From positions 2,698,066 to 2,762,065 of the forward strand of contig NZ_AP027365.1 in NCBI RefSeq assembly GCF_030295995.1: 64,000 bases of DNA, read 5' to 3'. This stretch comes from Thalassotalea hakodatensis. GTDB lineage: Bacteria > Pseudomonadota > Gammaproteobacteria > Enterobacterales > Alteromonadaceae. The notes beneath the pieces are model-generated. The model saw nothing but the letters and a program-made list of their open reading frames with translations, had not been told where the DNA came from and searched no databases. A program made the position numbers and the translations under genes. Positions 29,560 to 45,403 of the stretch are shown here, in pieces; within the stretch, counting starts at the first letter, position 1; each line of letters begins with the position of its first letter.

Positions 29560-30522
29560 TTGTTTTATGAAGGTTCTGAAAAGAAAACAGAGTTAATTGT
29601 TGATTGTAAGCAATTAAACTTACTAACTGACATTGATACTTGTGTTTGGAAAGATCTCGTAAACGCTTGCAATGCAAAAATTTTGTCCTCAATTGAAAAC
29701 AAACATTGCCGCGCATATTTATTGTCAGAGTCCAGCCTTTTTATTTGGAAAGACCGCTTATTAATTATCACATGTGGTATTACTCAACTGGTAAATTCAG
29801 CCATTTTTTTCTTCGAGAAATATGGTATTAATGTAGTTGAACATTTCATATACCAACGAAAAAATGAATACTTTTCTCATGCACAATCAAGTAACTTTGG
29901 CCAAGACGCGAAACGATTACAAAATTATTTATCAGGAAAAGCATTTCGCTTTGGCAACTTAGATAGTCATCATAATTATTTATTTCAGCTAAATAATAAC
30001 GTTAAAAGTATTCCTACGGCTAAAACCTATGAGCTAACAACCTACCAAATAAGTGATCGCGCTTCAGCAGTACTCACTAACCCTAAGCTTACAGCAAGTG
30101 ATGTGAGGAAATTTTTACAGCTTAAACGATTAATTCCAGGCTTTACGTTGGATGACTTCGTATTTGAACCATTTGGTTACTCTTTAAATGCCATTAAAGA
30201 TAAATGGTACTTTACTATTCACGTAACTCCGCAACGTGGCAGTAGTTATATCTCTTTTGAGTCGAATATCAACTTATTAGCCTTAGTGCCTATTATACTT
30301 GAGGTACTAGCACCTAATGCCTTCGATTTACTTACCTTTAATGAAACTAATTTCGACATGTTTACAGCAAAATATATCGATAATAGATATACTTGCCAGT
30401 CGAATGTAACAAAACACATTAAACACAGTTATCAAGTAAATTTTGCTCATTATATCTTGCCTCAATCACAAGCAACTTCACCTATTGAACTAGCATTAGA
30501 CGAAGATTTTTTTACCCTATAA
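29560..30522 (+). CDS. speD: S-adenosylmethionine decarboxylase proenzyme, eukaryotic-like class
   Basis: A 320-residue pyruvoyl enzyme that makes decarboxylated S-adenosylmethionine, the aminopropyl donor for spermidine. It resembles the eukaryotic class, not the short bacterial SpeD. Key residues align by motif to the human enzyme: FYEGSEK (E4, E7), the self-cleavage site LSESS (E57-S58), TCG (C72), FGYSLN (S208) and IHVTP (H221). The start is TTG at 29560 with TGGGGA upstream. A later start would lose E4 and E7. There is no spermidine synthase gene nearby; the next gene, 94 bp downstream, is a radical SAM peptide-maturation enzyme. Confidence 0.9.
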   Translation: MFYEGSEKKTELIVDCKQLNLLTDIDTCVWKDLVNACNAKILSSIENKHCRAYLLSESSLFIWKDRLLIITCGITQLVNSAIFFFEKYGINVVEHFIYQRKNEYFSHAQSSNFGQDAKRLQNYLSGKAFRFGNLDSHHNYLFQLNNNVKSIPTAKTYELTTYQISDRASAVLTNPKLTASDVRKFLQLKRLIPGFTLDDFVFEPFGYSLNAIKDKWYFTIHVTPQRGSSYISFESNINLLALVPIILEVLAPNAFDLLTFNETNFDMFTAKYIDNRYTCQSNVTKHIKHSYQVNFAHYILPQSQATSPIELALDEDFFTL

Positions 30523-30616: not shown

Positions 30617-32563
30617 ATGGACAAAGATATTTATTTAGTGTGTATGCCATACACTTCGTTAACAATTCCTTCAATGGCAATGGGAGTGCTTGAAACGTAT
30701 ATCACAGAATATGGCTATAACGTTGAATCACTATACGCCAACTTAGTTTTTGCGAAACAAATTGGTCTGATTGAATATAACTTCATCGATAACACATTTA
30801 ATGATTATTTAATTGGCGAGTGGACGTTTTCTAAAGCAGCGTTTCCTGACAAACCAGCTGATGATGACGGCTTTTTTGCGCTTTTTACTGATTTGTCTGA
30901 TGAAAATAAGCAAAAACTGTTAACCATCAGAGAAACCGCTGAGCGCTACATCGACTCACTTGCCAACGAAATTGTCAGCAACAGCCCAAAAATTGTCGGT
31001 TGTACCTCTACCTTTCAACAAAATTGTGCGTCACTTGCCTTGTTAAGAAAAATTAAAAGTCTTGATAGCAGTATTATTACTTTAATGGGAGGGGCTAACT
31101 GTGAAGGCATTATGGGGCAAACAATCAGTGAGAGCTTTTCATGGGTTGATTATGTTTTCTCCGGCGAATGTGATGACGTGATAGGCCCTTTCATTGACAA
31201 ACTAATGAAAAACGAGCCAATTAACTACCAAAATTTACCAAACGGCTTTATTAGCCAAAAACACAAGTCACTTGCCGTTGATGCTGGGCAAACACAAAAG
31301 CCACCTCGTGCCTATATTTCAGACATGAGAAAAGTTGGAGAGCCAATTTTTGACAGCTATTTTCAATCATTAGAGAGTCTAAAAATTGGACAATACATTT
31401 CCCCAGGTTTAGTCGCTGAAACCTCTCGAGGTTGTTGGTGGGGAGCAAAACAACACTGCACTTTTTGCGGTTTAAATGGCGGTACTATGGATCACCGTTC
31501 AAAAACACCTGAAGCTGCATTAAGTGAATTTAAAAATTTATCGAGCAAATACAACGTCGATAAATTTTTAATTGTCGATAATATATTACCGATAGAATAC
31601 ATGAAAACGGTGCTACCTACATTAGCAGAAGATCCTGCCTATAATTTATTTTATGAGACCAAAGCTAACTTAAAACAACACCATGTTAAATCGCTAGCTG
31701 AGGCTGGAATAAAGTGGATACAACCCGGCATTGAAGGCTTGCATGACGATTTTCTTAAGGCAATAAAAAAAGGCACTACAGCAATACAAAACCTTGCAGC
31801 ACTTAAGTGGTGTCGTAGCTATGGCGTTCGAGTGACCTGGAATTTATTATGCGAAGCCCCTAATGAACAAGCATTTTGGTATGATGAAATGGCTGAATGG
31901 CTGCCTTTAGTGACACATTACCATCCACCGTTCGATCAAATGGCCAAAATTTGTTACCACCGCTTTAGCCCATACTTTAATACCCCAGAAAAGTTTGGTT
32001 TAACACTCGAGCCAACCAAAAGTTATCAATATATTTATCCACTAGATAAACAAGTTGTTTATAACCTCGCGTATTTTTTCATTCAGGCAAACGATAAAGA
32101 AACAGGGATATACACGCTAAATTTTACCTTTAAGCCAGCAACTAATTCACATGCAAAGGTGCAATCATTACTAAACAACTGGAGTGATAGTTGGCTAAAC
32201 GGCACAATTCCAATGTGTTGTATGACAGATCATGGCAATAACATTATTATTTTTGATACACGACAAGTAGCGACTGCTTTTTCTCACACATTAGCGGGTT
32301 TAACGGCGGATATTTATCGTTTATGTGCAGAGCCCTTGCCAAAAGATAGATTAATCAAAAAACTCGATGAACAGCAAATTTCAAATAATACTCAGCAAAT
32401 AGAAGACACGCTGCACTGGTTAACTGAAAACCATCTAATCATTCATTTAAGTAAATGTGTAATGGCCCTTGCATTTCCTCTGGCACAAGCCGAAATGCCT
32501 AGTAATGAAGATTCGCCAGGGGGTAACTTGGATATAGAAAAAATACTAGACGAAATGAATTAG
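30617..32563 (+). CDS. B12-binding radical SAM enzyme, RiPP maturation protein 1-like
   Basis: A 648-residue protein. An N-terminal cobalamin-binding-like domain (~1-200, VGCTSTFQQN, TLMGGANCEG, VDYVFSGE) precedes a radical SAM core whose cluster motif is SRGCWWG-HCTFCGLNGG (Cys ~273, 281 and 284). The GCWWG variant is typical of the family found with ribosomally made, modified peptides, where members act as C-methyltransferases. A C-terminal region (~480-648) may recognise the peptide. I found no precursor peptide gene adjacent. It is the likely operon partner of speD and both are upstream of a TonB-dependent receptor. Confidence 0.88.
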   Translation: MDKDIYLVCMPYTSLTIPSMAMGVLETYITEYGYNVESLYANLVFAKQIGLIEYNFIDNTFNDYLIGEWTFSKAAFPDKPADDDGFFALFTDLSDENKQKLLTIRETAERYIDSLANEIVSNSPKIVGCTSTFQQNCASLALLRKIKSLDSSIITLMGGANCEGIMGQTISESFSWVDYVFSGECDDVIGPFIDKLMKNEPINYQNLPNGFISQKHKSLAVDAGQTQKPPRAYISDMRKVGEPIFDSYFQSLESLKIGQYISPGLVAETSRGCWWGAKQHCTFCGLNGGTMDHRSKTPEAALSEFKNLSSKYNVDKFLIVDNILPIEYMKTVLPTLAEDPAYNLFYETKANLKQHHVKSLAEAGIKWIQPGIEGLHDDFLKAIKKGTTAIQNLAALKWCRSYGVRVTWNLLCEAPNEQAFWYDEMAEWLPLVTHYHPPFDQMAKICYHRFSPYFNTPEKFGLTLEPTKSYQYIYPLDKQVVYNLAYFFIQANDKETGIYTLNFTFKPATNSHAKVQSLLNNWSDSWLNGTIPMCCMTDHGNNIIIFDTRQVATAFSHTLAGLTADIYRLCAEPLPKDRLIKKLDEQQISNNTQQIEDTLHWLTENHLIIHLSKCVMALAFPLAQAEMPSNEDSPGGNLDIEKILDEMN

Positions 32564-33026
32564 CCTCAAACTAGCCTATTTGCTTATCCAACTATCTAAC
32601 TATGTAGCTTGTAAAGCGGTAGCCAGCATCATTTATTTACAATGCTATTCTTCAGCAATATTGATAATGCAGTTGCTTTGAGCATAAAAGTGTTATGACT
32701 TTTATCTTATTATTATGCACGGCTTGGAAAATTATAGTGCTAAAGCCCAATTCAAATACATTGCGCTTTAGCCGCAATAAGTACAGTTTTATTTACAATA
32801 ATAATAATATTTATTAATCAACAAGTTAATCAATTAAAGCTCACTTAAATACCCGCATTACTGTCATGAATATGTTCAATTAGTTTTACAGTTAATTGTC
32901 ACAGTTTGAAAACAATAAAACAATCACGCCATGTTATCTCAGATAACATCTGATAGATTCAGATTACACCTTCTTACATTAACAAAAATTTTACAAACCA
33001 GAAGGTTAAGGATACTAGGGGTATAT
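32564..33026. other. Control region of the TonB-dependent receptor gene
   Basis: A 463-bp AT-rich stretch without a convincing gene. The right part holds a 19-bp perfect palindrome and the ribosome binding site of the receptor. No riboswitch consensus was recognised. Confidence 0.5.
32931..32949. promoter_or_regulatory. Perfect 19-bp palindrome upstream of the receptor gene
   Basis: ATGTTATCT and AGATAACAT are perfect 9-bp arms around one C. An overlapping ATCTGA/TCAGAT inverted repeat lies at 32948-32964. The site is 80 bp before the start codon, a fitting place for an operator. Confidence 0.45.
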
Positions 33027-35996
33027 ATGAATTTATCAAAAAACAAAGTCACTAAGACAGTGCAATATGCATTGGCTTTAACCGGCATATCAACAATGGT
33101 GTTAGGTCAACAGGTCATTGCAGCTGAAGAAGATAACGAGCGTATTACCGTAACAGGTTCTCGCATAAAGCACAGTAGTGCGCAAACAACAACACCAACA
33201 ACGGTAATTGATGCTGAAGCGATAGCGCAATCAGGAGTGAAAAACATTGCTGATTTAATGAATAAACTGCCAGCTCTTTTAAATGGTGTTGGAGGTAGCG
33301 CTATTAATAACAATAATGGTGGCAATATCAATAATGCTGGTCTTGAACTGGCAAATTTGCGTGGTTTAGGTACTAACCGTACCTTAGTCCTTGTTGACGG
33401 ACGCCGTCACGTAGCAGGCTCTGCTGGTTCATCAGCAGTGGATTTAAGCATGATCCCTACGTCAATGGTAGAGCGTGTTGAAGTTATAACTGGCGGTGCT
33501 TCAGCTATTTATGGTGCAGACGCGGTTACTGGCGTTGTCAATTTTATTATGCGTAAAAACATCGAAGGCTTTGAGATTGATGCATCCATGGGTGAAACAC
33601 GTTTTAATGATGGCGAATCTAAAGATCTTTCATTACAGTACGGGTTAACATATGCGGGTGGCAAAGGTAGCCTAACCATGCATGCCTCTTATTCTAAAGA
33701 AGAAGAAATTTCCATTCGTGCTCGTGATTACGCTAATAAAAACCATACCTTTGACTCAAACCCAGCCAATGGTTCAAATGATGATGGGGTCCCCGATTTA
33801 ATCTTTTTCGACGATCAACGTTTCCAAGCATTAAGTGCAGAAGGTTTATTTTACGTACCCAATCAAAACTACAGCTTCGGTGATTTGCCTATTACCATGG
33901 TATCAACCGTCATCGGTGCACCAGTTTTCGCCGATGATCCCTTTGGCTTTAACTACGATACCTACACAATCGATCGTGAAGATGGCCATTTTAGAGACTT
34001 TCAAGCAGGTACAAATTGTCGCGTAGTCCCATGTGAGGGAGGTGACGGTTTTAGAACAGAGGAAACTGGTACACTCAATGTACCAAGTGAAAGAACATTA
34101 TTTAGTCTAGCAACGCACTACGATATCAACAATAACCACCGCCTATATGCAGAAATCAAATACGGTAAAACAGAATCCGCTGCATCCGACCAAGCAAGTG
34201 TTTTCCATGATGATAACTTTGGTCCATTGATTACTATCACCAACGAAAACCCTTTTAGGCCACAACCGTTGGTTGACATAATGGATCAACGTGGGCTGCA
34301 ATCAGTTGGTCTAGCTGTTATTGGTTTAAACGCCCGCAGTGATACCACTCGTGAAACAACTCAGTTTGTTATTGGCGGTGATGGCTTTTTAGGTGATTAT
34401 CATTACACTTACTATGCGCAACATGGGAAAGTATCCACTGAATTACTTAACGATGATGTATTGAATGAAAACTACTATCGAGCACTCGATGCTGTTACGG
34501 GGCCAAATGGTGAGGCGGTCTGTCGTGAAGCGGCGGAGCACCCAGAGTGTGTTGCCTATGATCCCATTTTCTTTCGCGCTTCCGATGAAGCAAAAGCGTA
34601 CGCCAGTGTACAACTATTAACCGCTGATGAAATAGAACAGACGATTGTTTCTGCAACGATTGGCGGTGAAGCTTTTGAAACAGATGCAGGATACGCTGAC
34701 TTTGTTGTTGGTTTAGAGTACCGCGATGAGTCTTCTCAAAGTAAACCTGATCCGTTGTCGCAAGCAACAGACTCTGACGGTATCGGTTCTGGTCTTGTTG
34801 GTTCAAGAACCGGTCCTACAAGAGATCAAAACACCTATTTAAGACCAATAAACGGTAGTTACCATGTTGCTGAAGTCTTTGGTGAAATGCTAATACCCTT
34901 GATTAACGGTCAAACATTAGTTGAAAAATTAGAACTAGAGCTCGCGGGTCGTTATGCTGATCATAGCATCACAGGCGGTGACTTTACCTATAAAGTAGCG
35001 TTGAACTGGAGTATTTTTGAAGATTTACGCTTACGTTCTACTTATTCGCATGCTGTACGCGCACCGAATATTGAAGAGCTCTTTACACCCGAGCAAGCAA
35101 CGGCCGCTAATATGGTAGATCCCTGCTCTTCAAGTAATATAGGTTCTGGCCCCCAAGACGGCAATCGTATTGATAACTGCGCAGCAATTGGTATAGCTGA
35201 GGGTTTTGTATCTACTGCTGATTTTGGCACTAGAACTGAATTACGAGGCGGTAATACTGACTTAGACCCAGAATCAGCAGATACTTATACTCTAGGCTTA
35301 GTGATTACCCCTTTAGATGAGCTAAGTATTGCTATTGACTATTGGGATGTTGAAATTGAAGACGCTATAACAACTTATAATCCAAGCTTTATTCTCAACA
35401 ATTGTGTAGATGGCCAATCAGTGAATGATAAATTCTGTGATCTTGTAAACCGAAATGAGATGGGTCAAATCACTGCCGTTCATACCGAATCAATCAATGT
35501 TGCAGCATTTGTTGCTTCCGGCGTAGATTTAGATGTGAACTACTCACTTGATCTTGGTGATACCGGTGGTTTGAATGTTCATATTAAAGGAACATACCTA
35601 GACGAACGGAAATTCTTTAATAATATTGAAGACCCAAACGACAAGTCTAGTTTTGCAGGACAAGCAGGCTCCCCTCACCTTCGGGCATTAATCAATACTT
35701 CATATCACTATGAAGATTTAAATGTCAGCTGGTCAATGAATTATATTGGTCGTTCTACGTTTAACAAAGAAGCGACGGAAGAAACCTATGAGGACTGGTT
35801 TAACAACGAGGTTGGTTCTTATGTTTATCACAATATCAATGTTGACTACCAAATCACAAACGATTTATCTGCTTATTTAGGGGTAAACAACTTAACAGAT
35901 AAACGCCCGCCCGCGTTACCAAACCTAAATGCAGGTAGCTTACTGTATGATGGTATTGGTCGTAAGTATTACGCAGGTATTCGTTATACTTTCTAA
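33027..35996 (+). CDS. TonB-dependent outer-membrane receptor
   Basis: A 989-residue receptor. A signal peptide (~1-32) is followed by ITVTGSRI, the plug domain (~45-165, DLMNKLPALLNG, LRGLGTNRTLVLVDGRR, VERVEVITGGASAIYGADAVTGVVN) and a large beta barrel ending in IRYTF with the terminal aromatic residue. The ATG at 33027 has AGGGG upstream and starts right at the signal peptide. This long, GSRI-type receptor class is common in marine Alteromonadales for peptides or carbohydrates. The substrate is not evident. A strong terminator follows. Confidence 0.94.
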   Translation: MNLSKNKVTKTVQYALALTGISTMVLGQQVIAAEEDNERITVTGSRIKHSSAQTTTPTTVIDAEAIAQSGVKNIADLMNKLPALLNGVGGSAINNNNGGNINNAGLELANLRGLGTNRTLVLVDGRRHVAGSAGSSAVDLSMIPTSMVERVEVITGGASAIYGADAVTGVVNFIMRKNIEGFEIDASMGETRFNDGESKDLSLQYGLTYAGGKGSLTMHASYSKEEEISIRARDYANKNHTFDSNPANGSNDDGVPDLIFFDDQRFQALSAEGLFYVPNQNYSFGDLPITMVSTVIGAPVFADDPFGFNYDTYTIDREDGHFRDFQAGTNCRVVPCEGGDGFRTEETGTLNVPSERTLFSLATHYDINNNHRLYAEIKYGKTESAASDQASVFHDDNFGPLITITNENPFRPQPLVDIMDQRGLQSVGLAVIGLNARSDTTRETTQFVIGGDGFLGDYHYTYYAQHGKVSTELLNDDVLNENYYRALDAVTGPNGEAVCREAAEHPECVAYDPIFFRASDEAKAYASVQLLTADEIEQTIVSATIGGEAFETDAGYADFVVGLEYRDESSQSKPDPLSQATDSDGIGSGLVGSRTGPTRDQNTYLRPINGSYHVAEVFGEMLIPLINGQTLVEKLELELAGRYADHSITGGDFTYKVALNWSIFEDLRLRSTYSHAVRAPNIEELFTPEQATAANMVDPCSSSNIGSGPQDGNRIDNCAAIGIAEGFVSTADFGTRTELRGGNTDLDPESADTYTLGLVITPLDELSIAIDYWDVEIEDAITTYNPSFILNNCVDGQSVNDKFCDLVNRNEMGQITAVHTESINVAAFVASGVDLDVNYSLDLGDTGGLNVHIKGTYLDERKFFNNIEDPNDKSSFAGQAGSPHLRALINTSYHYEDLNVSWSMNYIGRSTFNKEATEETYEDWFNNEVGSYVYHNINVDYQITNDLSAYLGVNNLTDKRPPALPNLNAGSLLYDGIGRKYYAGIRYTF

Positions 35997-36016
35997 TTAG
36001 CTAAAGCATGCAATAC

Positions 36017-36050
36017 AAAAGCGGAATCACTCTGGACGCTCCGCTTTTTT
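36017..36050 (+). terminator. Rho-independent terminator of the receptor gene
   Basis: AAAAGCGGA (36017-36025) and TCCGCTTTT (36040-36048) form the stem and the T-run continues to 36050. Confidence 0.85.
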
Positions 36051-36102
36051 GCATCACAGTACATCGTAGGCCAATTTGCATGACTCTTTAATCAATTAAC
36101 TA

Positions 36103-37320
36103 TTATTCATGCTCGAAATATATGCGATATGTGGAAGACCAAATAGGATGATCTACTTCAAGAAAGTAGCAAATGAAATCGTTTTTATTTAAATGGGTAA
36201 AATTAAATAAATAATCTGTCATGTCTTTAATCGCTAAACCGCCTAGTTCAATAAAGTTTGGAGCATCTGGTTGAACTATTCGTAATTCAGGAAACTCAGG
36301 CAAACGTTCAGTCCACATATCATCCGCTCTTAATTTACCTTCTTTTACTTTTTGATTTCCAGAATAACAACCAACGTTAACCGTGCTACGCCTATCTAGT
36401 TTTTTCTCAAAAAACACCATGGTTAACAACTTTCTCGTTGGATTTTTAATCGAAATACTCGTTGAACTACATTTACTTACATGCTGCAACGGATTAGATA
36501 ATTCATCTGGGTTACTAAATAAAAATGTTGCATTTATTTTTGATACATTCGGTATTTCATTAAAAACAATACCTGAATTACTGACTGAGTAGCTCGCATA
36601 AGAATCCAACAAGCCTTTAGTTGAGTATTCATCAACCACCCCTACTTGAAACCTGGTCGTATCTAACGAAGAATGACGAGTAATATTTTCAGGTCGGGTA
36701 AAATCTTCTGGGTGAGGATGAGTATAAAATTGCACAAACGGCGGTGCCGATTTTGCGCGTACAATACCCTGTTTGGCAATCATTGCAACTTCTTGCAAAA
36801 ACTCATTATTGTGCTCATTTTCTTTCAACAAATAACAAGCAAACAGCGTGTCAATTGAAGAGCCTACCAATTGCTTAGAGGCAAGGTAATGTTGTTCTCG
36901 TTTCTCCTCAGCAGATAGCATAGTTGAATCGACTGGGGTAAATTCTGACTTAGCGCCTAACAAGCGTTTTAGTTCTGCATGGCTTCTAACATATTTCTTT
37001 AAGACAAGTTCAAAAGTATCAAGTGCTTTAACAGTCTCTAAAATCAATTGTTGTTCAATGTCTGTTTGCTCAACTTGTGTTAAAAAATCTTTTAAGCCAG
37101 CGATGCCGGGCAATAGACATAACACTTGTTTACCATCCCGGCTTTTATAGACACCATCTAGAATGCGTTGACAATTTGAGCGATTAAAACTCAACCATTT
37201 AGACATTCCTGTGATCGACTGTGCTGATCTTGGAAATTCAGCAATCAAACGACGTAAAACACTTTTTAAGTTTTCTCCTGTACGATTAAGTACAATTAAG
37301 TCTTCTTTTTCTAATTCCAT
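36103..37320 (-). CDS. Hypothetical protein with possible N-terminal helix-turn-helix
   Basis: A 405-residue soluble protein I cannot place. The first ~60 residues are helical with a helix-turn-helix look (ITGMSKWLSFNRSNCQRILDG). Residues ~90-180 are helical and charged, and the C-terminal half is mixed with several strands. No signal peptide or membrane span is seen. It sits between the receptor (convergent) and the REC-GGDEF regulator on the same strand with a 76-bp gap. A regulatory role is only a guess. Confidence 0.7.
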   Translation of the reverse strand: MELEKEDLIVLNRTGENLKSVLRRLIAEFPRSAQSITGMSKWLSFNRSNCQRILDGVYKSRDGKQVLCLLPGIAGLKDFLTQVEQTDIEQQLILETVKALDTFELVLKKYVRSHAELKRLLGAKSEFTPVDSTMLSAEEKREQHYLASKQLVGSSIDTLFACYLLKENEHNNEFLQEVAMIAKQGIVRAKSAPPFVQFYTHPHPEDFTRPENITRHSSLDTTRFQVGVVDEYSTKGLLDSYASYSVSNSGIVFNEIPNVSKINATFLFSNPDELSNPLQHVSKCSSTSISIKNPTRKLLTMVFFEKKLDRRSTVNVGCYSGNQKVKEGKLRADDMWTERLPEFPELRIVQPDAPNFIELGGLAIKDMTDYLFNFTHLNKNDFICYFLEVDHPIWSSTYRIYFEHE

Positions 37321-37396: not shown

Positions 37397-38311
37397 CTAT
37401 ATTATTTCTAAAACTGTCTGATTACGGCCATTATTTTTTGCCCGATATAGTAAACGATCTGCTTTTACTAAGACATCTTTAGCTGAAAGTAAACTATCAC
37501 CATTCAACAATACTGCACCAACACTCATGGTTAAATAGTCAGACACATCAGAGAATTCGTGTTGAATAGCTTTATCTGACAACGCAGTAAAAATATTCTG
37601 TAGTACTTGTTTTGCTCCATGCTCATCGCAATCAGGTAATATAAGCGTAAACTCTTCTCCACCGTAGCGAGCCACAAAGTCTCTCGGTCTTTTTAGCACT
37701 TCACGCAGCAATACCGACACCTTTTTCAGAGCAATATCGCCTGCACCATGCCCGTAGTTATCGTTAAATGGTTTAAAATAATCAACATCAAGCATGGCTA
37801 CCAGTAATTGTTTTTTGTCACGTTTATTCGCCGCTAACTCACTTTTTAATACCTTATCAAGCTTCCTACGGTTTGAAATCCCCGTTAAGGCATCAATATG
37901 AGCAATAGTATCAAGCATTTTTCGTTGTTGAATTAATTCAAGGTGTGTAGAAATACGTGCCGTCACTATATTAGTATTAAACGGTTTATAGATATAATCA
38001 CACCCCCCTAAAGCAAAGCCTCTTTCTTCATCATGGCAATTGGCAAGCCCAGTGATAAATATCACTGATGTTGCCATGGTAACGGGATCATTTTTTATCG
38101 TTTCAATGACCTCAAAACCTGACTTATCGGGCATTACAACATCTAATAGCATTAAATCAGGCGTATGCTTGTGTGCGAGTTCAATGGCTTGTTCACCGTT
38201 TTTAGCAAAGATAATTTTTGCTTGTTCTTGCAAAAGCTCTTTTAATATTTTTCGGTTAGCTTTTTCGTCATCAACAATTAACACTTTAAGGTCAAAACTT
38301 TCTAGTTCCAT
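37397..38311 (-). CDS. Response regulator with GGDEF domain (diguanylate cyclase)
   Basis: A protein of ~304 residues. The N-terminal receiver domain (KVLIVDDEKANRK, phospho-Asp in LMLLDVVMPDKSG, lysine in YIYKPF) is followed by a GGDEF domain with an intact active site (RYGGEEFTLILPDC), so it should make cyclic di-GMP when phosphorylated. The ATG at 38309-38311 lies eight bases after the stop of the giant hybrid kinase. In-frame starts at 38332 and 38350 overlap the kinase gene and are possible. The tight link makes it the natural output partner of that kinase. Confidence 0.9.
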   Translation of the reverse strand: MELESFDLKVLIVDDEKANRKILKELLQEQAKIIFAKNGEQAIELAHKHTPDLMLLDVVMPDKSGFEVIETIKNDPVTMATSVIFITGLANCHDEERGFALGGCDYIYKPFNTNIVTARISTHLELIQQRKMLDTIAHIDALTGISNRRKLDKVLKSELAANKRDKKQLLVAMLDVDYFKPFNDNYGHGAGDIALKKVSVLLREVLKRPRDFVARYGGEEFTLILPDCDEHGAKQVLQNIFTALSDKAIQHEFSDVSDYLTMSVGAVLLNGDSLLSAKDVLVKADRLLYRAKNNGRNQTVLEII

Positions 38312-38318
38312 ACGATGA

Positions 38319-41300
38319 TTATTCTTTATCATTTTTATTATTTGAAACATTAGCGCCAGTTATTGTTGCTAATATCGCCTCTATATTATTAATTGCTTGT
38401 GCATATTCAATGTCATCAATGTCATCTGCTATTTTTTTGGCTAATTGCTCATAATCAGAGCCTTTGGTCAATGTTAACAGTCGTGGTAATAAATCTTCAG
38501 CCTTAGCATTCTCTTCAACAACTAAGGTCTTAATAGACGATAGCAGGTCGTTTAACTGTTTATGAAAATACTGAACATTAACAATTGAATTTTCTGATTG
38601 CTCAGGTGCTATTAAGTTAACCGGTAAACTCTTTAGCGCGATTAACACATTATTCAATTCAATCGATGTTTCAGCAACCAGTAAATCAGCCGATTCTGGG
38701 TCACTTTTAAGTTGAGATTCAAGCTGAGTAGCCCGCTTTGCCAACGTTAATGCACCAATATAATTTGCATTAGACTTTAAAGAGTGTGCGACCCTATAAG
38801 CAGTATCATAATCTTGTTGCTTGTATATTTCACGTAGAGAATCTACTGTATCAGAGTAATTTTTAGCAAATTGCTGTACTAACTTTTGATATAAATGCTC
38901 ACGCCCCCCCATAGTTTTAATCGCTGTTTTAGCATCAATACTCGGGAGCTTTTCTATCTCTGCTAACAGAGACACTTCCTTCGTTTGCTCTGATTCTGTA
39001 TTTCGCTTTTGATGGGTGATTTTCTGTCGCGTTTCATCGCTTTTTATCAGTGTTACTTGTTCACTCACTGCTTCATTATTTAGCCACTTTGATAACAAGA
39101 TATATAAAGCATTTGGATCTATCGGTTTAGTAAAATAATCATTCATCCCTACTTCTAAACAACGATCTAATTCCTCTTGCATGGCATGGGCGGTCATTGC
39201 AATGATAGGTAAATTACTAAATTGATCGTTTGCACGAATAATTTTTGTTGCCGTTAACCCATCCATTATCGGCATTTGTAAATCCATAAACACAAGGTCG
39301 TAGCTTTCACTATCTAATTTATCAATCGCCACTTGTCCATTTTCTGCGATATCAATATTCACACCTGTTTCTTCTAAAAATCCAAGAACCACTTGTTGAT
39401 TTAAAGCATTATCTTCAACAAGCAGTATACGACTATGAGATAAATCTAAAATACCTTTTTGTACTTGATGATATTCTAAATGTTTTTGTTCAAGCTTTAA
39501 TGCATTCATCATCGCATCTAATAATAAAGATGCATCAACAGGCTTTTCTAAGAAGCCATCAATACCAGCCTCATGCGACAAAGTCATTGCATCATTTTTG
39601 TCGAATGCCGTCACCATTAATACTGCTGGTATATCATGCTTTTCAGTTAATTTGTTTATTCGATGCGCCAGTTCAATACCATCCATTTTGGGCATACGCC
39701 AGTCAGTGATCACTAAATCAAATGGTTGTTCAAGTAATATTGCGTTATCAATAAGCTCAAGTGCTGTTATAGCACTTTCCGTTGTTGTGATTTTGCAACC
39801 AAACTGTTTTAACAAAGCATCTAACACATTTAAACAAAGTGCATTATCATCAACAACCAATACATTTATTCCCTCGATCATTAACGATTGTGCAGCAAGT
39901 AACTCACTTTGTTCGACTTCTTCATAATGCACCGTAAAACCAAAAGTACTCCCTTCCCCTAATTGGCTGTCTACCCATATTTTACCCCCCATAAGCGTGG
40001 TCAGTTGCTTACAAATCGATAAACCAAGCCCTGTACCACCAAAGCGACGGGTTATAGAGGTATCAGCTTGATTGAATGAGGTAAAAAGGTTTTCCATGGT
40101 ATTTTCATCTAAACCTATCCCCGTATCTGACACTGAAAATTCAAGTGTGTTATTTTCGGTAGACTTAACCTCAATTAATACGTGACCACTTTCAGTAAAT
40201 TTGATTGCATTACTCGCAAGGTTCACCAATATCTGTTGCAGCCTGATAGGATCAGATTTAATTTGTTTAGGTACATCAGGTGCAATTCTTACCACTAGCT
40301 CTAACCCTTTGCTATGTGCTTTTAAAGCACATATGTTAGCTGTTTTTTTAATCAGCGCCTCTATATTCATCACCACTGACTCTATGGTCATTTTACCTGC
40401 TTCAATCTTAGAAAAATCTAATATGTCGTTAATAAGTGCAAGCAACGCTTGTGAGGCATCTTGAATTTTACCAATTAAATCTTTCTGGTGATTATCAAGT
40501 TTGGTTTTGAATGCTAAATGACTTAAACCGATAATAGCATTCATAGGAGTGCGAATTTCATGGCTCATTTTAGCGAGAAATTCACTTTTCGCCTGTGTCG
40601 CTTTTTCTAGTTCAGCGGTACGGCTAGACACTTGATACTCAAGATGTCGGTTGATATCAAGTAAACTTAAGTGATTTTCAACACGGGTTAATAGTTCATG
40701 TTTAGAAATAGGTTTAGTTAAATAATCATTACCACCAACCGAAAAGCTTTCTACTAAGTCGATTACCTGATTTTTTGCTGTCAGAAAAATTACGGGTAAT
40801 TCATTTAACGAATACCATTCTCTTATTTGATTACATACCTCATAGCCTGACATTTTTGGCATCATAATATCGAGTAATATTAAATCAAAAGGTCGAATTT
40901 TTTCTTCGCTGCTATCTGTAGCATCTTCAATTAAAGACAATGCTTGTTTGCCGCTGGCAGCTTCTGTTAACTGATACCCTTTCAGATTTAAGTGGTTCAA
41001 TAACACTTGACGATTAATCGGATCATCATCTACCACTAAGATGTGATAGTTTTGGTAATTTAGCTGCCTATTTTGCTGAGATATTAACTCGCTTTCATCT
41101 AAGCTGATATACTCAATTTCATTATCAAGGTGTTGTAAACGATTTAGCTTCTGTTGATTCGTCGACTTAACAATATTTGTGACATCAGTAATATGGTCAT
41201 TATCAATTGGCAAGGTAAAACTAAAACAACTCCCTTTACCCAATTCAGAGGTTACTGATATTGTACCTTCATGTAATTCAACAAGTTGTTTTGTAACGGT

Positions 41301-44300
41301 TAAACCTAAGCCTGTCCCACTATGATCTCTATTCGTTTGGCCTTTTAACTGTTCAAAAGAGTTAAAAATAAGATGTAGTTGTTCTGCTGCTATACCAATA
41401 CCAGTGTCTTTTACCGAAATTTTAACGACATTACCGCTTTGTTCTGCATCAATAGTTACCTCACCATTTTCGGTAAATTTTATCGCATTACCGATCAAGT
41501 TATATAAAATTTGTTCTAATCGGTTCTCGTCAGCATTAACAATAGGAAGTTCACTAGATACACGGTTAATAAGTGTAATGTTTTTATCTCCTATTAACGG
41601 AGTAGACACCGTCATTACAACGTCAGTTAAACTATGTAACTCAACTCCCGTTAAATTCAGCTTTAAGGTATGATTTTTTAATTTTGAAAAGTCGAGAATG
41701 TCATTAACAAGATTTGATAAACGCTTACCACTGGCAACAACCATAGCAAGGTTTTTATTAGCAGATTCGGGCAACTGCCCAGAAACACCATCAATTAATG
41801 ATTCAGCTAAGCCAATAATCCCGTTGAGTGGGGTACGTAACTCATGAGATGTATTCGCTAAAAACTCATCCTTTAATCTGTCCGCACGTTTTAACTGCAC
41901 ATTTATTGCGTGCTCTTTTAATCGCTGATAATTTTGCCGATATAAGATCAATCCAATAATGCCGATGATCAAAATTAAATATATTGTATAAGCCCACCAG
42001 GTCCGCCACATTGGTGGTAGCACAGTTATATTGAGTGATTTACCGGTTTCATTCCAGTACCCGTCTCCATTGCTCGCCTTTACACGTAATGTATAATCAC
42101 CTGAGGGTAAACTGGTATATGTTGCCCTTCTATTTTTGGCATCGGTATAAATCCATTGCTCATCAAAACCTTCAAGCTTATAGGCGTATTGATTATTCAT
42201 TGGGGCTGCAAAATGCAGCGCGGCAAATTCAAAGGTAACCAGCTTTTCATCGTATGTTAACTTTAAGCGTTCTAATTCATTAATATCGGATGGAATCGTG
42301 AAACCAGCACTATTCACATTACGTTTTTTCTCATTTTTGTTTTCACTTGATTGAATTTCAACATGTTTGTTATGTACTAAAAAATCAGTCAACACAACTT
42401 TAGGTAACGATGTATCATCTTTAATGTCAGCGGGGAAAAAACGATTAAAACCATTCACGCCACCAAAGAATAACTCCCCTGATTTAGCTTTGAAATAACT
42501 TAAAGAATTAAACTCACTGCCTTGGACGCCATCACTTTGATTATAGTTTTTAAAAACCTGTCGTTTCATATCAAACTTCGATAGGCCTTTGTTCGTGCTT
42601 ATCCACAAATTCCCATTCTTATCTGGTAACACTGCGTAAACATTATTATTTGCTAAACCATTTTTTTCATCATAAACAATAAATTTATCAAGTTCAGAAT
42701 TAAAAGTAATCAAGCCAAACGAAGTAGCAAACCAGTATTGTTGCTGATGCTCTGTAATTGCCCATACAGTTAAGTCGTTAAAAAAACTGTTCTGTTTTTC
42801 GCTTGTAGAAAGAACTAAAGGATGAAATTTAGAAGTACTTAAATTTAAAACACTAACACCAGAATCAGTAGCAACCCAAAAAGTATCCTCATCAATCTTT
42901 TTTATATCCCAAATATTGTTATTTGAAATACTTGATTTTATATTTTCATCAAATAGAAAGTTTTCAAAGTTTCCATCTGTCAAATCAAGTATGTTTAGAC
43001 CGCCACCCATTGTACCCACAAGCAACTTTTTATTATCAATAAATAATTTAGTCAACACATTATGGCTAATCGTTTTTGAATCAGTTGATTTGTTTTTAAA
43101 ATGTTTAATTTTTTCTGTTTCTAAATCAACTACAAATAAGCCATTATCCGCTGTCGCTATGTAAAGAGTTTTTTGGTCATCACTGAATAATAGAGATACA
43201 GTTAATAACGTACCTAGTTTATTATTTATAGGCAAATGTGTTAATACTTCAGATTGTTTATCAATACTGTAAATACCTCCCCCATAAGTTGCAAAGTAAT
43301 AGTTTTTTGCTGTTTCCTCAAACCCTAAAATAACATTACTCGTAAGTGTATTATATTTGGCCTTATCAACTAACTTAAACTGACCTAAGGTCAAATCAAG
43401 CTTGTTCAAACCTCCGGCTCTTGTACCAAACCACAAGGTTTCGTTACTGCCCTTCTTAATCAAACTAATTTCGGGATGGCTTAGACTTCGAGATTTAGAT
43501 TGCTGATGAGAGAAATATAAAATTTCATTATTTTGAAATTGGTATTTATAACCGCCATTACTTGTTCCAATCCATAACTCTGAAGCATTACGAAAATACA
43601 ATGAGTTTACATTTTCTATGCCATCTAACCTTTCAATTTTTTGAAACACTTTTGATTTACTATCAAAAGTGAACACTCCTTTAGTCGTTGCAATAAAAAG
43701 TCCCTTTTGAGTGTGTTGCTTAACATCGTTAATTTTAAATATAGTTTCAAAAGCAATAGTAGATTCTGTATCATTACCCTCGATTAAAAATAAATTTGAA
43801 TTAAGTGCCTTTCGATTCTGCTTGGCTCCCCAAATATTACCCTCACCATCAACTAGTAAACTGGTGACTGCATGTTTAGTAAAGTATTTTCGTACAACTT
43901 CATTTGTATTATTAATTAAAAACAAGCCGTTATCAGTACCTACCCAAAGATTCCCTTTCGAATCTGAAGCAATACTGTTAATTATTTCCCCTTCTCTAGA
44001 CGATGAAAATCCTACTTTTTTAAACTCATCAATTTTCTTAATATAATGATACAAACCTCCATCTGAGCCAGCCCAAATTTCACCTTTGATTGTTTCATGT
44101 AAAACAGATATTCTTGGATTATTAAAATTATAATGTTTAAAAATATAGCCATCATATCGGTTTAAATTCCCATCTGTAGCTACCCATAAAAAACCACTTG
44201 AATCCTGCAATATGTCATTTACAGTTGTTTGCGACATGCCATCAGCAGTACCAAACCGTTCAAAATTAAGATCTAATTGGTTAATGCTGTCTTCTCTAGC

Positions 44301-44369
44301 AGTAGATAAGTTACAAAAAACAAGAAAGAAGCAATAAGCAGCTAATAAACAAAGTTTAATCATTCGCAC
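38319..44369 (-). CDS. Giant hybrid sensor histidine kinase with two kinase cores
   Basis: A 2016-residue one-protein phosphorelay. The order is: signal peptide (1-24); two-component propeller repeats (~30-690, FLWVATDGNLNRYDG-type); Y_Y_Y domain (~700-785); membrane span (~793-812); first HisKA (SHELRTPLNG, ~840) and ATPase; receiver 1 (LLDIMMPKMSG, ~1168); second HisKA (SHEIRTPMNA, ~1270) and ATPase; receiver 2 (TDWRMPKMDG, ~1557); receiver 3 (MDLQMPIMDG, ~1697); HPt (AHSLKSNANY, ~1863). There is no DNA-binding domain. The start is GTG 44369 or ATG 44363. The periplasmic propellers resemble sensors of polysaccharides. It is divergent from the peptide/HDO operon. Confidence 0.93.
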   Translation of the reverse strand: MRMIKLCLLAAYCFFLVFCNLSTAREDSINQLDLNFERFGTADGMSQTTVNDILQDSSGFLWVATDGNLNRYDGYIFKHYNFNNPRISVLHETIKGEIWAGSDGGLYHYIKKIDEFKKVGFSSSREGEIINSIASDSKGNLWVGTDNGLFLINNTNEVVRKYFTKHAVTSLLVDGEGNIWGAKQNRKALNSNLFLIEGNDTESTIAFETIFKINDVKQHTQKGLFIATTKGVFTFDSKSKVFQKIERLDGIENVNSLYFRNASELWIGTSNGGYKYQFQNNEILYFSHQQSKSRSLSHPEISLIKKGSNETLWFGTRAGGLNKLDLTLGQFKLVDKAKYNTLTSNVILGFEETAKNYYFATYGGGIYSIDKQSEVLTHLPINNKLGTLLTVSLLFSDDQKTLYIATADNGLFVVDLETEKIKHFKNKSTDSKTISHNVLTKLFIDNKKLLVGTMGGGLNILDLTDGNFENFLFDENIKSSISNNNIWDIKKIDEDTFWVATDSGVSVLNLSTSKFHPLVLSTSEKQNSFFNDLTVWAITEHQQQYWFATSFGLITFNSELDKFIVYDEKNGLANNNVYAVLPDKNGNLWISTNKGLSKFDMKRQVFKNYNQSDGVQGSEFNSLSYFKAKSGELFFGGVNGFNRFFPADIKDDTSLPKVVLTDFLVHNKHVEIQSSENKNEKKRNVNSAGFTIPSDINELERLKLTYDEKLVTFEFAALHFAAPMNNQYAYKLEGFDEQWIYTDAKNRRATYTSLPSGDYTLRVKASNGDGYWNETGKSLNITVLPPMWRTWWAYTIYLILIIGIIGLILYRQNYQRLKEHAINVQLKRADRLKDEFLANTSHELRTPLNGIIGLAESLIDGVSGQLPESANKNLAMVVASGKRLSNLVNDILDFSKLKNHTLKLNLTGVELHSLTDVVMTVSTPLIGDKNITLINRVSSELPIVNADENRLEQILYNLIGNAIKFTENGEVTIDAEQSGNVVKISVKDTGIGIAAEQLHLIFNSFEQLKGQTNRDHSGTGLGLTVTKQLVELHEGTISVTSELGKGSCFSFTLPIDNDHITDVTNIVKSTNQQKLNRLQHLDNEIEYISLDESELISQQNRQLNYQNYHILVVDDDPINRQVLLNHLNLKGYQLTEAASGKQALSLIEDATDSSEEKIRPFDLILLDIMMPKMSGYEVCNQIREWYSLNELPVIFLTAKNQVIDLVESFSVGGNDYLTKPISKHELLTRVENHLSLLDINRHLEYQVSSRTAELEKATQAKSEFLAKMSHEIRTPMNAIIGLSHLAFKTKLDNHQKDLIGKIQDASQALLALINDILDFSKIEAGKMTIESVVMNIEALIKKTANICALKAHSKGLELVVRIAPDVPKQIKSDPIRLQQILVNLASNAIKFTESGHVLIEVKSTENNTLEFSVSDTGIGLDENTMENLFTSFNQADTSITRRFGGTGLGLSICKQLTTLMGGKIWVDSQLGEGSTFGFTVHYEEVEQSELLAAQSLMIEGINVLVVDDNALCLNVLDALLKQFGCKITTTESAITALELIDNAILLEQPFDLVITDWRMPKMDGIELAHRINKLTEKHDIPAVLMVTAFDKNDAMTLSHEAGIDGFLEKPVDASLLLDAMMNALKLEQKHLEYHQVQKGILDLSHSRILLVEDNALNQQVVLGFLEETGVNIDIAENGQVAIDKLDSESYDLVFMDLQMPIMDGLTATKIIRANDQFSNLPIIAMTAHAMQEELDRCLEVGMNDYFTKPIDPNALYILLSKWLNNEAVSEQVTLIKSDETRQKITHQKRNTESEQTKEVSLLAEIEKLPSIDAKTAIKTMGGREHLYQKLVQQFAKNYSDTVDSLREIYKQQDYDTAYRVAHSLKSNANYIGALTLAKRATQLESQLKSDPESADLLVAETSIELNNVLIALKSLPVNLIAPEQSENSIVNVQYFHKQLNDLLSSIKTLVVEENAKAEDLLPRLLTLTKGSDYEQLAKKIADDIDDIEYAQAINNIEAILATITGANVSNNKNDKE

Positions 44370-44540: not shown

Positions 44541-44717
44541 ATGGACAAATCAAACGTAGAACATTTACATGCAGAAGGCGTAATCAATAAAGAGCAGTTA
44601 CACGATGAGCAAATAAAGGCAATAGAGAGTCTTTCAAAAGAAGAAGTTGAACAATTGAAATCAATCAACAAAAAAGTAAAGGGGACAAAAGGTAAGCCTG
44701 TAGGTATCGGTATTTAA
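44541..44717 (+). CDS. 58-residue peptide, putative RiPP precursor
   Basis: A small gene with ATG at 44541 and AGGA nine bases upstream. The product is charged and helical in its first ~47 residues (AIESLSKEEVEQLKSINKKV), like a leader, and ends in a short Gly-rich tail GTKGKPVGIGI, like a core. It has no Cys, aromatic residue or signal peptide. Its stop overlaps the ATG of the diiron oxidase gene (TAATG), a mark of tight coupling. The leader pattern recalls the aroma-sacti type peptides as I remember them. That it is a substrate of the oxidase is inference from this arrangement. Confidence 0.7.
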   Translation: MDKSNVEHLHAEGVINKEQLHDEQIKAIESLSKEEVEQLKSINKKVKGTKGKPVGIGI

Positions 44718-45403
44718 TGGCTAAAAATCTTTCAAATTTTGAAAGGCTTGAAAAAAGCCTTTCTTTCATGGAAAACAGAGCTTGTGTCGCCAATGAAAAC
44801 TATACTACTCACTCTCACTCAGTCAATGCATGCATAGAACAAGCATATTCAAGTTATCGAATTTCTAATGCCTCCATTAATCTAATGCAAGAAGCATTAA
44901 ATGAATCCTTAAAGAAAATGCACGACCCTGTTTATCAATTACTTGCTGGTTATATGAAGAAACATATTCCGGAAGAAACTGGGCATGATGAGTGGTTTTT
45001 AGAAGATTTGGCCGTCATGGGTGTTAGCCAAGCAGAAGCGGAAGATCGAATTCCATCTCTCAATATAACCACATTTATCGGTTCTCAATACTTTCTAATA
45101 AAGCATGTTGATCCTGTTGCTATTATGGGATATTTGGCTTGCACAGAAACACACCCGCCGACGGTGGACTACGTTAACGAGCTGGTAGAGCGCTCAAGAT
45201 TACCTAAAGAAGCATTTAATGCATTGATGCACCATGCAATTTTAGATGTGCAACACAAACAAGATATTATAGAAACAATTAATAACATGCCTTTATCAGA
45301 AAAACAGTACAAAGTGCTTGAGCTCAGCGCTTTTCAAACTTATCGATATGTAGCTAATATTATGGATGATGCAAGTAAAGCAGCACAAGCAACTTCAGCC
45401 TAA
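44717..45403 (+). CDS. Heme-oxygenase-like diiron oxidase (HDO) family protein
   Basis: A 228-residue helical protein. All six metal ligands of the UndA-type HDO site can be placed: E87 and H90 in EETGHDEWF, E144 in CTETHPP, then H173, D177 and H180 in HHAILDVQH (H-x3-D-x2-H). Spacing agrees with UndA as I recall it. HDO enzymes use two irons and oxygen to oxidise or cleave amino acids, fatty acids or peptides. The family is also annotated as iron-containing redox enzyme. The gene starts within the stop of the 58-residue peptide gene and ends convergent with an aminotransferase, so the operon has two genes. Confidence 0.85.
   Translation: MAKNLSNFERLEKSLSFMENRACVANENYTTHSHSVNACIEQAYSSYRISNASINLMQEALNESLKKMHDPVYQLLAGYMKKHIPEETGHDEWFLEDLAVMGVSQAEAEDRIPSLNITTFIGSQYFLIKHVDPVAIMGYLACTETHPPTVDYVNELVERSRLPKEAFNALMHHAILDVQHKQDIIETINNMPLSEKQYKVLELSAFQTYRYVANIMDDASKAAQATSA

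Follow-up and report, generated by a model that had tools for sequence, protein, structure and literature searches.

A conserved peptide encoded beside a heme-oxygenase-like diiron oxidase as part of a dispersed candidate RiPP system in Thalassotalea hakodatensis and its relatives

In the genome of Thalassotalea hakodatensis a very short open reading frame (ORF) runs into the gene of a heme-oxygenase-like diiron oxidase (HDO), which raises the question of whether this ORF is a genuine gene and whether its product could be the substrate of the oxidase. The stretch analysed here (the window) comprises 64,000 nucleotides, positions 2,698,066 to 2,762,065 of contig NZ_AP027365.1, and belongs to a genome of 4.28 Mb in one contig (G000). 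The small ORF (44541–44717, plus strand) encodes 58 residues, MDKSNV...GKPVGIGI, and looks like the precursor of a ribosomally synthesised and post-translationally modified peptide (RiPP), with a putative leader at residues ~1–50 and a putative core within the C-terminal PVGIGI. The HDO of 228 residues is encoded at 44717–45403 on the same strand. The stop codon of the peptide gene and the start codon of the HDO gene share the A of TAATG, a one-base overlap that a preliminary description of this locus had already pointed out correctly.

Judged from the sequences, the 58-codon ORF is a real gene, because it is kept beside the HDO in 16 of 18 HDO ORFs, where it lies upstream, and because its dN/dS is low (0.09–0.19 in the four of eight pairs tried in which it was estimable, synonymous sites being saturated in the other four). 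The 18 HDO ORFs come from 16 fetched regions, among which G066, a genome of the same species, was not included. The one-base overlap recurs in seven of the 16 pairs, while five show a gap of 0–15 nt and four a gap of 79–92 nt. The precursors ending in Phe (L045, L046, L047 and the first pair of L040) are those located 79–92 nt before the HDO gene; in the other twelve the distance is −1 to 15 nt. A promoter scan yielded nothing in excess of shuffled sequences.

The pairing was followed through a family sample of 196 genomes. HDO matches were present in 70 of them, with a close clade at E <1e-50 of 15 genomes and 17 ORFs; the next HDOs were those of G029 (E 2e-28) and G073 (E 2e-24). The peptide profile detected 17 copies in 15 genomes belonging to 6 of the 52 genera, and these are exactly the genomes of the close HDO clade (Fisher 9e-23, a value that ignores shared ancestry and refers to an HDO threshold fixed after the list was seen). 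The proposed pairing of a precursor with an HDO is conserved and exclusive, the same 15 of 196 genomes carrying both. The two HDOs of the 18 that lack the peptide (L048 from G029 and L049 from G073) are accompanied by an enzyme of the TIGR03975 family and by an NHLP-like ORF of 94 and 86 residues, respectively. With the NHLP-type Os1348 model, whose cut-off is 40, these ORFs score 27.2 and 25.0 bits; perhaps they represent another precursor family served by the same enzymes.

The preliminary description had named relatives of the HDO without such a peptide as evidence against its idea; within the clade its idea stands (16 of 18 paired, two with the NHLP-like ORF), but the more distant HDOs do lack the peptide. 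As a trait of HDOs at large the pairing has to be rejected: of the 70 HDO genomes, 15 have the peptide, two the NHLP-like ORF and 53 no peptide match. In an all-frame search that found its positive control, the peptide profile matched nothing in 13 family loci (L021–L033) or in 28 class-sample loci with distant HDOs. Around these HDOs we noted what we take to be AMP-ligase-like plus SDR-like (short-chain dehydrogenase/reductase-like) motifs, in 12 of the 13 family and 18 of the 28 class loci. The order AMP-ligase-like gene, HDO gene, SDR-like gene is widespread (L021–L033, L157–L184), its HDOs are near to structure 3dde, and it presumably belongs to another HDO pathway. An HDO match at E 1e-15 was found in 33 of 369 genomes of the class sample; in the order sample 50 of 394 genomes had a match, which exceeded 83 bits only in G000, G021 and G039.

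The assignment of the oxidase itself is straightforward. It scores 41.7 bits against PF14518 (Haem_oxygenas_2; cut-off 28.9), and its AlphaFold 2 (AF2) model, with a pLDDT of 95.3 and a pTM of 0.90, is a heme-oxygenase-like helical bundle. The 3-His/3-carboxylate diiron ligand set E87, H90, E144, H173, D177 and H180, which had been read from the window sequence alone, was recovered at the same positions and does not vary among the HDOs aligned (18 of 18). By fold and ligand set the protein belongs to the HDO superfamily; metal binding and O2 activation are predicted. The best Foldseek match is UndA (4wwj; E 2.6e-6, TM 0.76), with 3dde third, and the matches at E <0.001 include UndA, 3dde, CADD and BesC. 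UndA (12–13% identity) and 3dde are the nearest solved HDOs. AetD and MboA are weak matches of the HDO profile (E 2.4e-4 and 0.0017), and PolF, AetD and MboA are not among the 50 structural matches listed, an absence that excludes nothing. A scan of genome contigs gave a single locus, an identical HDO in a contig named Thalassotalea sp. PP2-459.

In a midpoint-rooted tree carrying long-branch warnings for L159 and Sinorhizobium, 19 HDOs (the clade plus that of the Sinorhizobium fredii locus L185) separate from seven others at 97/92; five of the latter are of the ligase type and two, L157 and L159, are from other contexts. Tyr79 and His130 occur in 19 of 19 subfamily HDOs and in none of the seven, His83 and Tyr139 in 19 of 19 and in one of the seven. 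Three precursor contexts thus seem to share one HDO subfamily, for which a peptide-tailoring role is the simplest reading.

Characterised HDOs act mostly on small acids, and the leader part of our peptide is more conserved than its tail (mean column entropy 1.16 versus 1.57 bits). Both facts would suit a peptide that is a dedicated small subunit, activator or carrier of an HDO acting on a small molecule. We regard this as improbable, since two further HDOs adjoin the NHLP-like ORF and one adjoins YcaO-TfuA genes, a radical SAM enzyme of RiPP maturation co-occurs with the pair, and the leader resembles a RiPP leader model. The last point refers to NCBIfam NF045560 (aroma_sacti_dom), which the window peptide matches with 29.7 bits (E 5.7e-7) against a cut-off of 30, so that by sequence it only resembles this domain and falls outside the family as defined; three scanned relatives, at 20.0, 22.6 and 21.3 bits, are all below the cut-off as well. 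The AF2 model of the peptide has helices at residues 5–11, 22–29 and 33–49, and residues 55–58 have a pLDDT <50, so that the leader is modelled as helical and the tail as unstructured. In our opinion the HDO very probably acts on this peptide.

The preliminary description had envisaged two genes with neither transporter nor protease; the picture of two genes and no protease did not survive comparison with other genomes. The window itself encodes, at 30617–32563 on the plus strand, a B12-binding radical SAM enzyme of 648 residues that belongs to the TIGR03975 family of RiPP maturation C-methyltransferases (658.1 bits; cut-off 281.85). Such an enzyme is found in 14 of the 15 peptide genomes (not in G149) and in G029 and G073, that is, in 16 of the 17 genomes of the family that have a RiPP-type HDO; the remaining 179 genomes all lack it. 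With a conserved precursor gene next to the tailoring enzyme and a recognised RiPP maturase among its parts the system counts as a candidate RiPP system, the modified peptide itself being a prediction. A papain-like C1 protease accompanies the peptide in each of the 15 genomes, and G130 has a fragment of it (16 of 196 in total). Its Gln, Cys, His and Asn, presumably the catalytic residues, are conserved in 14 of 14 aligned sequences including the G000 copy at 839 kb; the second G048 copy, which is split across two frames, and G066 were left out of this alignment. We reject a minimal two-gene system on account of the co-occurring protease and radical SAM enzyme, and what we are probably dealing with is a dispersed multi-gene RiPP system.

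In other genera the radical SAM and protease genes mostly adjoin the pair. Thalassotalea has them scattered: the radical SAM gene lies some distance away within the window, and the protease homologue is at 839 kb of the genome. A 75-residue protease remnant near the HDO of G128 fits dispersal from an ancestral cluster. The dispersal, the confinement of the peptide to 6 of 52 genera and the case of G149, which has the peptide and no radical SAM enzyme, would suit a view in which the radical SAM enzyme and the protease are functionally separate and co-occur with the pair only through the shared ancestry of a few lineages. This we hold to be most improbable, as the protease ORF lies by the pair in ten and the radical SAM gene in eight of 14 peptide loci, within the stretch fetched, while each is missing from 180 of the 196 family genomes. 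No transporter was recognised among the neighbours common to the loci, not all of which were annotated.

The 16 paired peptides are 56–64 residues long (for the G079 peptide and the second G101 peptide the start was set, by choice, at an internal Met). The tail had been called Gly-rich; its conservation holds, but the C-terminal segment GKPVGIGI (44691–44714) is better described as one invariant Gly (Gly55) followed by exactly three residues, the last being I, L, V or F. The first of these is I, V, A or L and the second a variable non-polar residue; no tail has a polar side chain after the Gly (Met occurs in three), which leaves the backbone, an aliphatic carbon or the C-terminus as the expected place of oxidation. 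Counted from the C-terminus, the last 6 positions have a mean column entropy of 1.57 bits, against 2.38 bits for the 9 positions before them.

As Gly55 is the sole invariant residue of the tail, the HDO might instead modify an internal residue, this Gly or the adjacent Val/Ile, as a dehydrogenase or hydroxylase similar to VarO, which is proposed to introduce a double bond into an Arg side chain of the thiovarsolins (PMC6511847). We consider such an internal site possible though doubtful. The Gly is exactly the fourth residue from the C-terminus in 16 of 16 peptides despite the changing length of the linker before it, and this constant distance points to recognition of the peptide end. Moreover, the substrate carboxylate is bound to Fe1 in MboA, AetD, UndA, HrmI and PolF, as stated in PMC13185094. 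Since several HDO structures have the substrate carboxylate at Fe1, and in MboA it is that of a peptide C-terminus, we give oxidation of the C-terminal residue about an even chance.

The distribution of tail types bears on the same question. On the HDO tree the type (Phe versus aliphatic) requires one change, on a branch with 80/99 support that is not starred, whereas on the radical SAM tree it requires two, and uniting the two F genomes in one clade was rejected there (p-AU 8.6e-57; G048, having both tail types, was left out). This fit with the one tree and conflict with the other would be expected if the HDO, and not the radical SAM enzyme, reads the end of the tail. Adjacency of the genes could be the cause instead, and with three tail classes 3 changes are needed, one above the minimum. 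G048 (L040) and G101 (L042) each possess two peptide–HDO pairs with differing tails and one radical SAM enzyme per genome.

Taken as a whole, we consider it moderately probable that these genes constitute a RiPP pathway in which the HDO oxidises the C-terminal residue, methylation is the task of the radical SAM enzyme, the leader is cleaved off by the protease and the kinase described below is regulatory; the roles of methyltransferase, protease and kinase are those that we infer. The precursor would begin with a helical leader, continue in a charged linker and end in a short hydrophobic core at its extreme C-terminus. The HDO would recognise the leader, bind the free carboxylate of the C-terminus at its diiron site and use O2 to oxidise the last residue, desaturation or oxidative decarboxylation being the most likely outcomes. 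Where present, the TIGR03975 enzyme would methylate an unactivated carbon of the core, and the papain-like protease encoded elsewhere in the genome would cut off the leader. The divergent hybrid kinase and a GGDEF regulator may control the genes or sense the product.

The kinase gene (38319–44369, minus strand) is divergent from the peptide gene and encodes a hybrid sensor kinase of 2016 residues with Reg_prop and Y_Y_Y domains, two kinase modules, receivers and Hpt according to Pfam. A hybrid kinase of ~2000 residues lies next to the peptide in every one of the 14 loci; it was mapped at full length in 12, and it is also there in L037 and, as pieces at a contig end, in L045. Its sensor part, at E 1e-90, occurs in eight of 59 sampled family genomes, namely all six sampled peptide genomes, G029 and G058. 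Paired with the kinase is a response regulator with a GGDEF domain (Pfam; 37397–38350, minus strand), which adjoins it in eight of 14 systems; in the other six the fetched stretch or contig ends there. In G130 (L138), where the kinase and the GGDEF regulator are accompanied by only the protease fragment and the peptide profile finds nothing, the system has probably been lost. One may go further and imagine a RiPP class defined by O2-dependent HDO oxidation of the C-terminal residue (e.g., decarboxylation to a C-terminal enamide) and subsequent B12-radical C-methylation, whose small product is read by the propeller-type hybrid kinase, with peptide, oxidase and sensor forming one signalling module of marine Gammaproteobacteria; this is speculative, and we think it rather unlikely.

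The unit may have undergone exchange. The window HDO is only 43–44% identical to those of three congeners, while the radical SAM enzyme shares 94% (G099), 84% (G021) and 68% (G128) and the peptide 67% (G021, G099), 58% (G128) and 64% (G079) identity. Grouping of the four Thalassotalea HDOs was rejected (p-AU 0.00036, for a group picked after the identities were seen and with a long branch involved), whereas the four stay together in the kinase tree (100/100) and in the radical SAM tree (79/92, not starred). The identities and trees suggest that the HDO was replaced, perhaps together with its peptide, although the peptide identities give no sign of replacement.

Other neighbours were rejected as parts of the system. 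Directly upstream of the radical SAM gene is an AdoMet (S-adenosylmethionine) decarboxylase gene (29560–30522, plus strand; PF01536, 177.5 bits), which we take to be of the eukaryotic type; it lies beside the radical SAM gene in G000, G021 (54% identity) and G099 (90%), but not in G128 or the other mapped genomes. A TonB-dependent receptor and a 405-residue ORF with no Pfam or NCBIfam match fill 32931–37320, between the radical SAM gene and the GGDEF regulator; in G021, G099 and G128 they are absent from this position, and the stretch is probably a species-specific insertion.

HDOs are known for unusual C–H and C–C chemistry, and in the literature covered those tied to ribosomal peptides amount to VarO plus a heme-oxygenase-like gene of Sinorhizobium. 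A short encoded C-terminal core, 16 natural precursors and an overlapping oxidase gene would make HDO chemistry on peptides directly testable. The data also suggest that the genes of a RiPP pathway can be scattered through a genome, in which case mining for gene clusters would overlook the protease and give too little weight to the two-gene unit. No publication that combines an HDO with a TIGR03975 enzyme, or that treats this peptide family, came up in literature searches that mostly do not extend to subscription papers; nothing was found on aroma-sacti either, nor on a RiPP that involves a heme oxygenase together with a radical SAM enzyme and a C-methyltransferase.

RiPP clusters that contain an HDO have a precedent. 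In the thiovarsolin pathway of Streptomyces varsoviensis, according to PMC6511847, VarO is likewise a heme-oxygenase-like protein that tailors a ribosomal peptide, and its deletion mutant suggests a dehydrogenase role; a 2026 HDO review (PMC13108848) cites ribosomal peptide modification through that paper. The same source describes a repeating precursor, YcaO-TfuA thioamidation and a gene for an MFS (major facilitator superfamily) transporter, whereas the window system has a single hydrophobic C-terminal core, a B12 radical SAM enzyme and a C1 protease. A tblastn search of the window and 25 loci with the Sinorhizobium YcaO/TfuA pair gave no match at E 1e-4.

A Sinorhizobium YcaO-TfuA cluster with a heme-oxygenase-like gene is noted in PMC8120280. 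The HDO of S. fredii L185 scores 163 bits against the clade profile, versus 73–87 for the seven others, agrees with the window HDO in each of the 18 positions that were compared and joins the clade with the 97/92 given above, a placement made unsure by its long branch and the accompanying warning. Beside it are a 67-residue ORF, which ends in VICGL and matched no NCBIfam model, YcaO and TfuA, with no radical SAM enzyme in a partner role. The locus is on psfSMH12a, a plasmid predicted to be conjugative, and the HDO gene is divergent from the other three genes. TIGR03975 loci elsewhere in Gammaproteobacteria (7 of 369 class genomes) share the radical SAM family; the 8–18 kb fetched around the six such loci from genomes of other families, in two cases on short contigs, gave no HDO match.

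Closest to the proposed reaction is MboA of mangotoxin biosynthesis, for which PMC13185094 reports action on a peptide whose C-terminal carboxylate ligates Fe1 and whose C-terminal residue is oxidised. Its ligands stand at nearly the same numbers as in the window HDO (86, 89, 143, 172, 176 and 181), and its Tyr82, the proposed base, would correspond to the invariant His83, by numbering without structural alignment. MboA differs in that its tripeptide is non-ribosomal, made by ATP-grasp ligases, and in having a redox partner, MboB. The fatty-acid decarboxylase UndA likewise takes a hydrophobic carboxylate, but its substrate is a lipid and its identity to the window HDO is 13%; we know of no peptide that pairs with it. 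While VarO provides the precedent for an HDO in a RiPP system, the precursor family, the combination of enzymes and the probable C-terminal site of action are what is new in the system described here.
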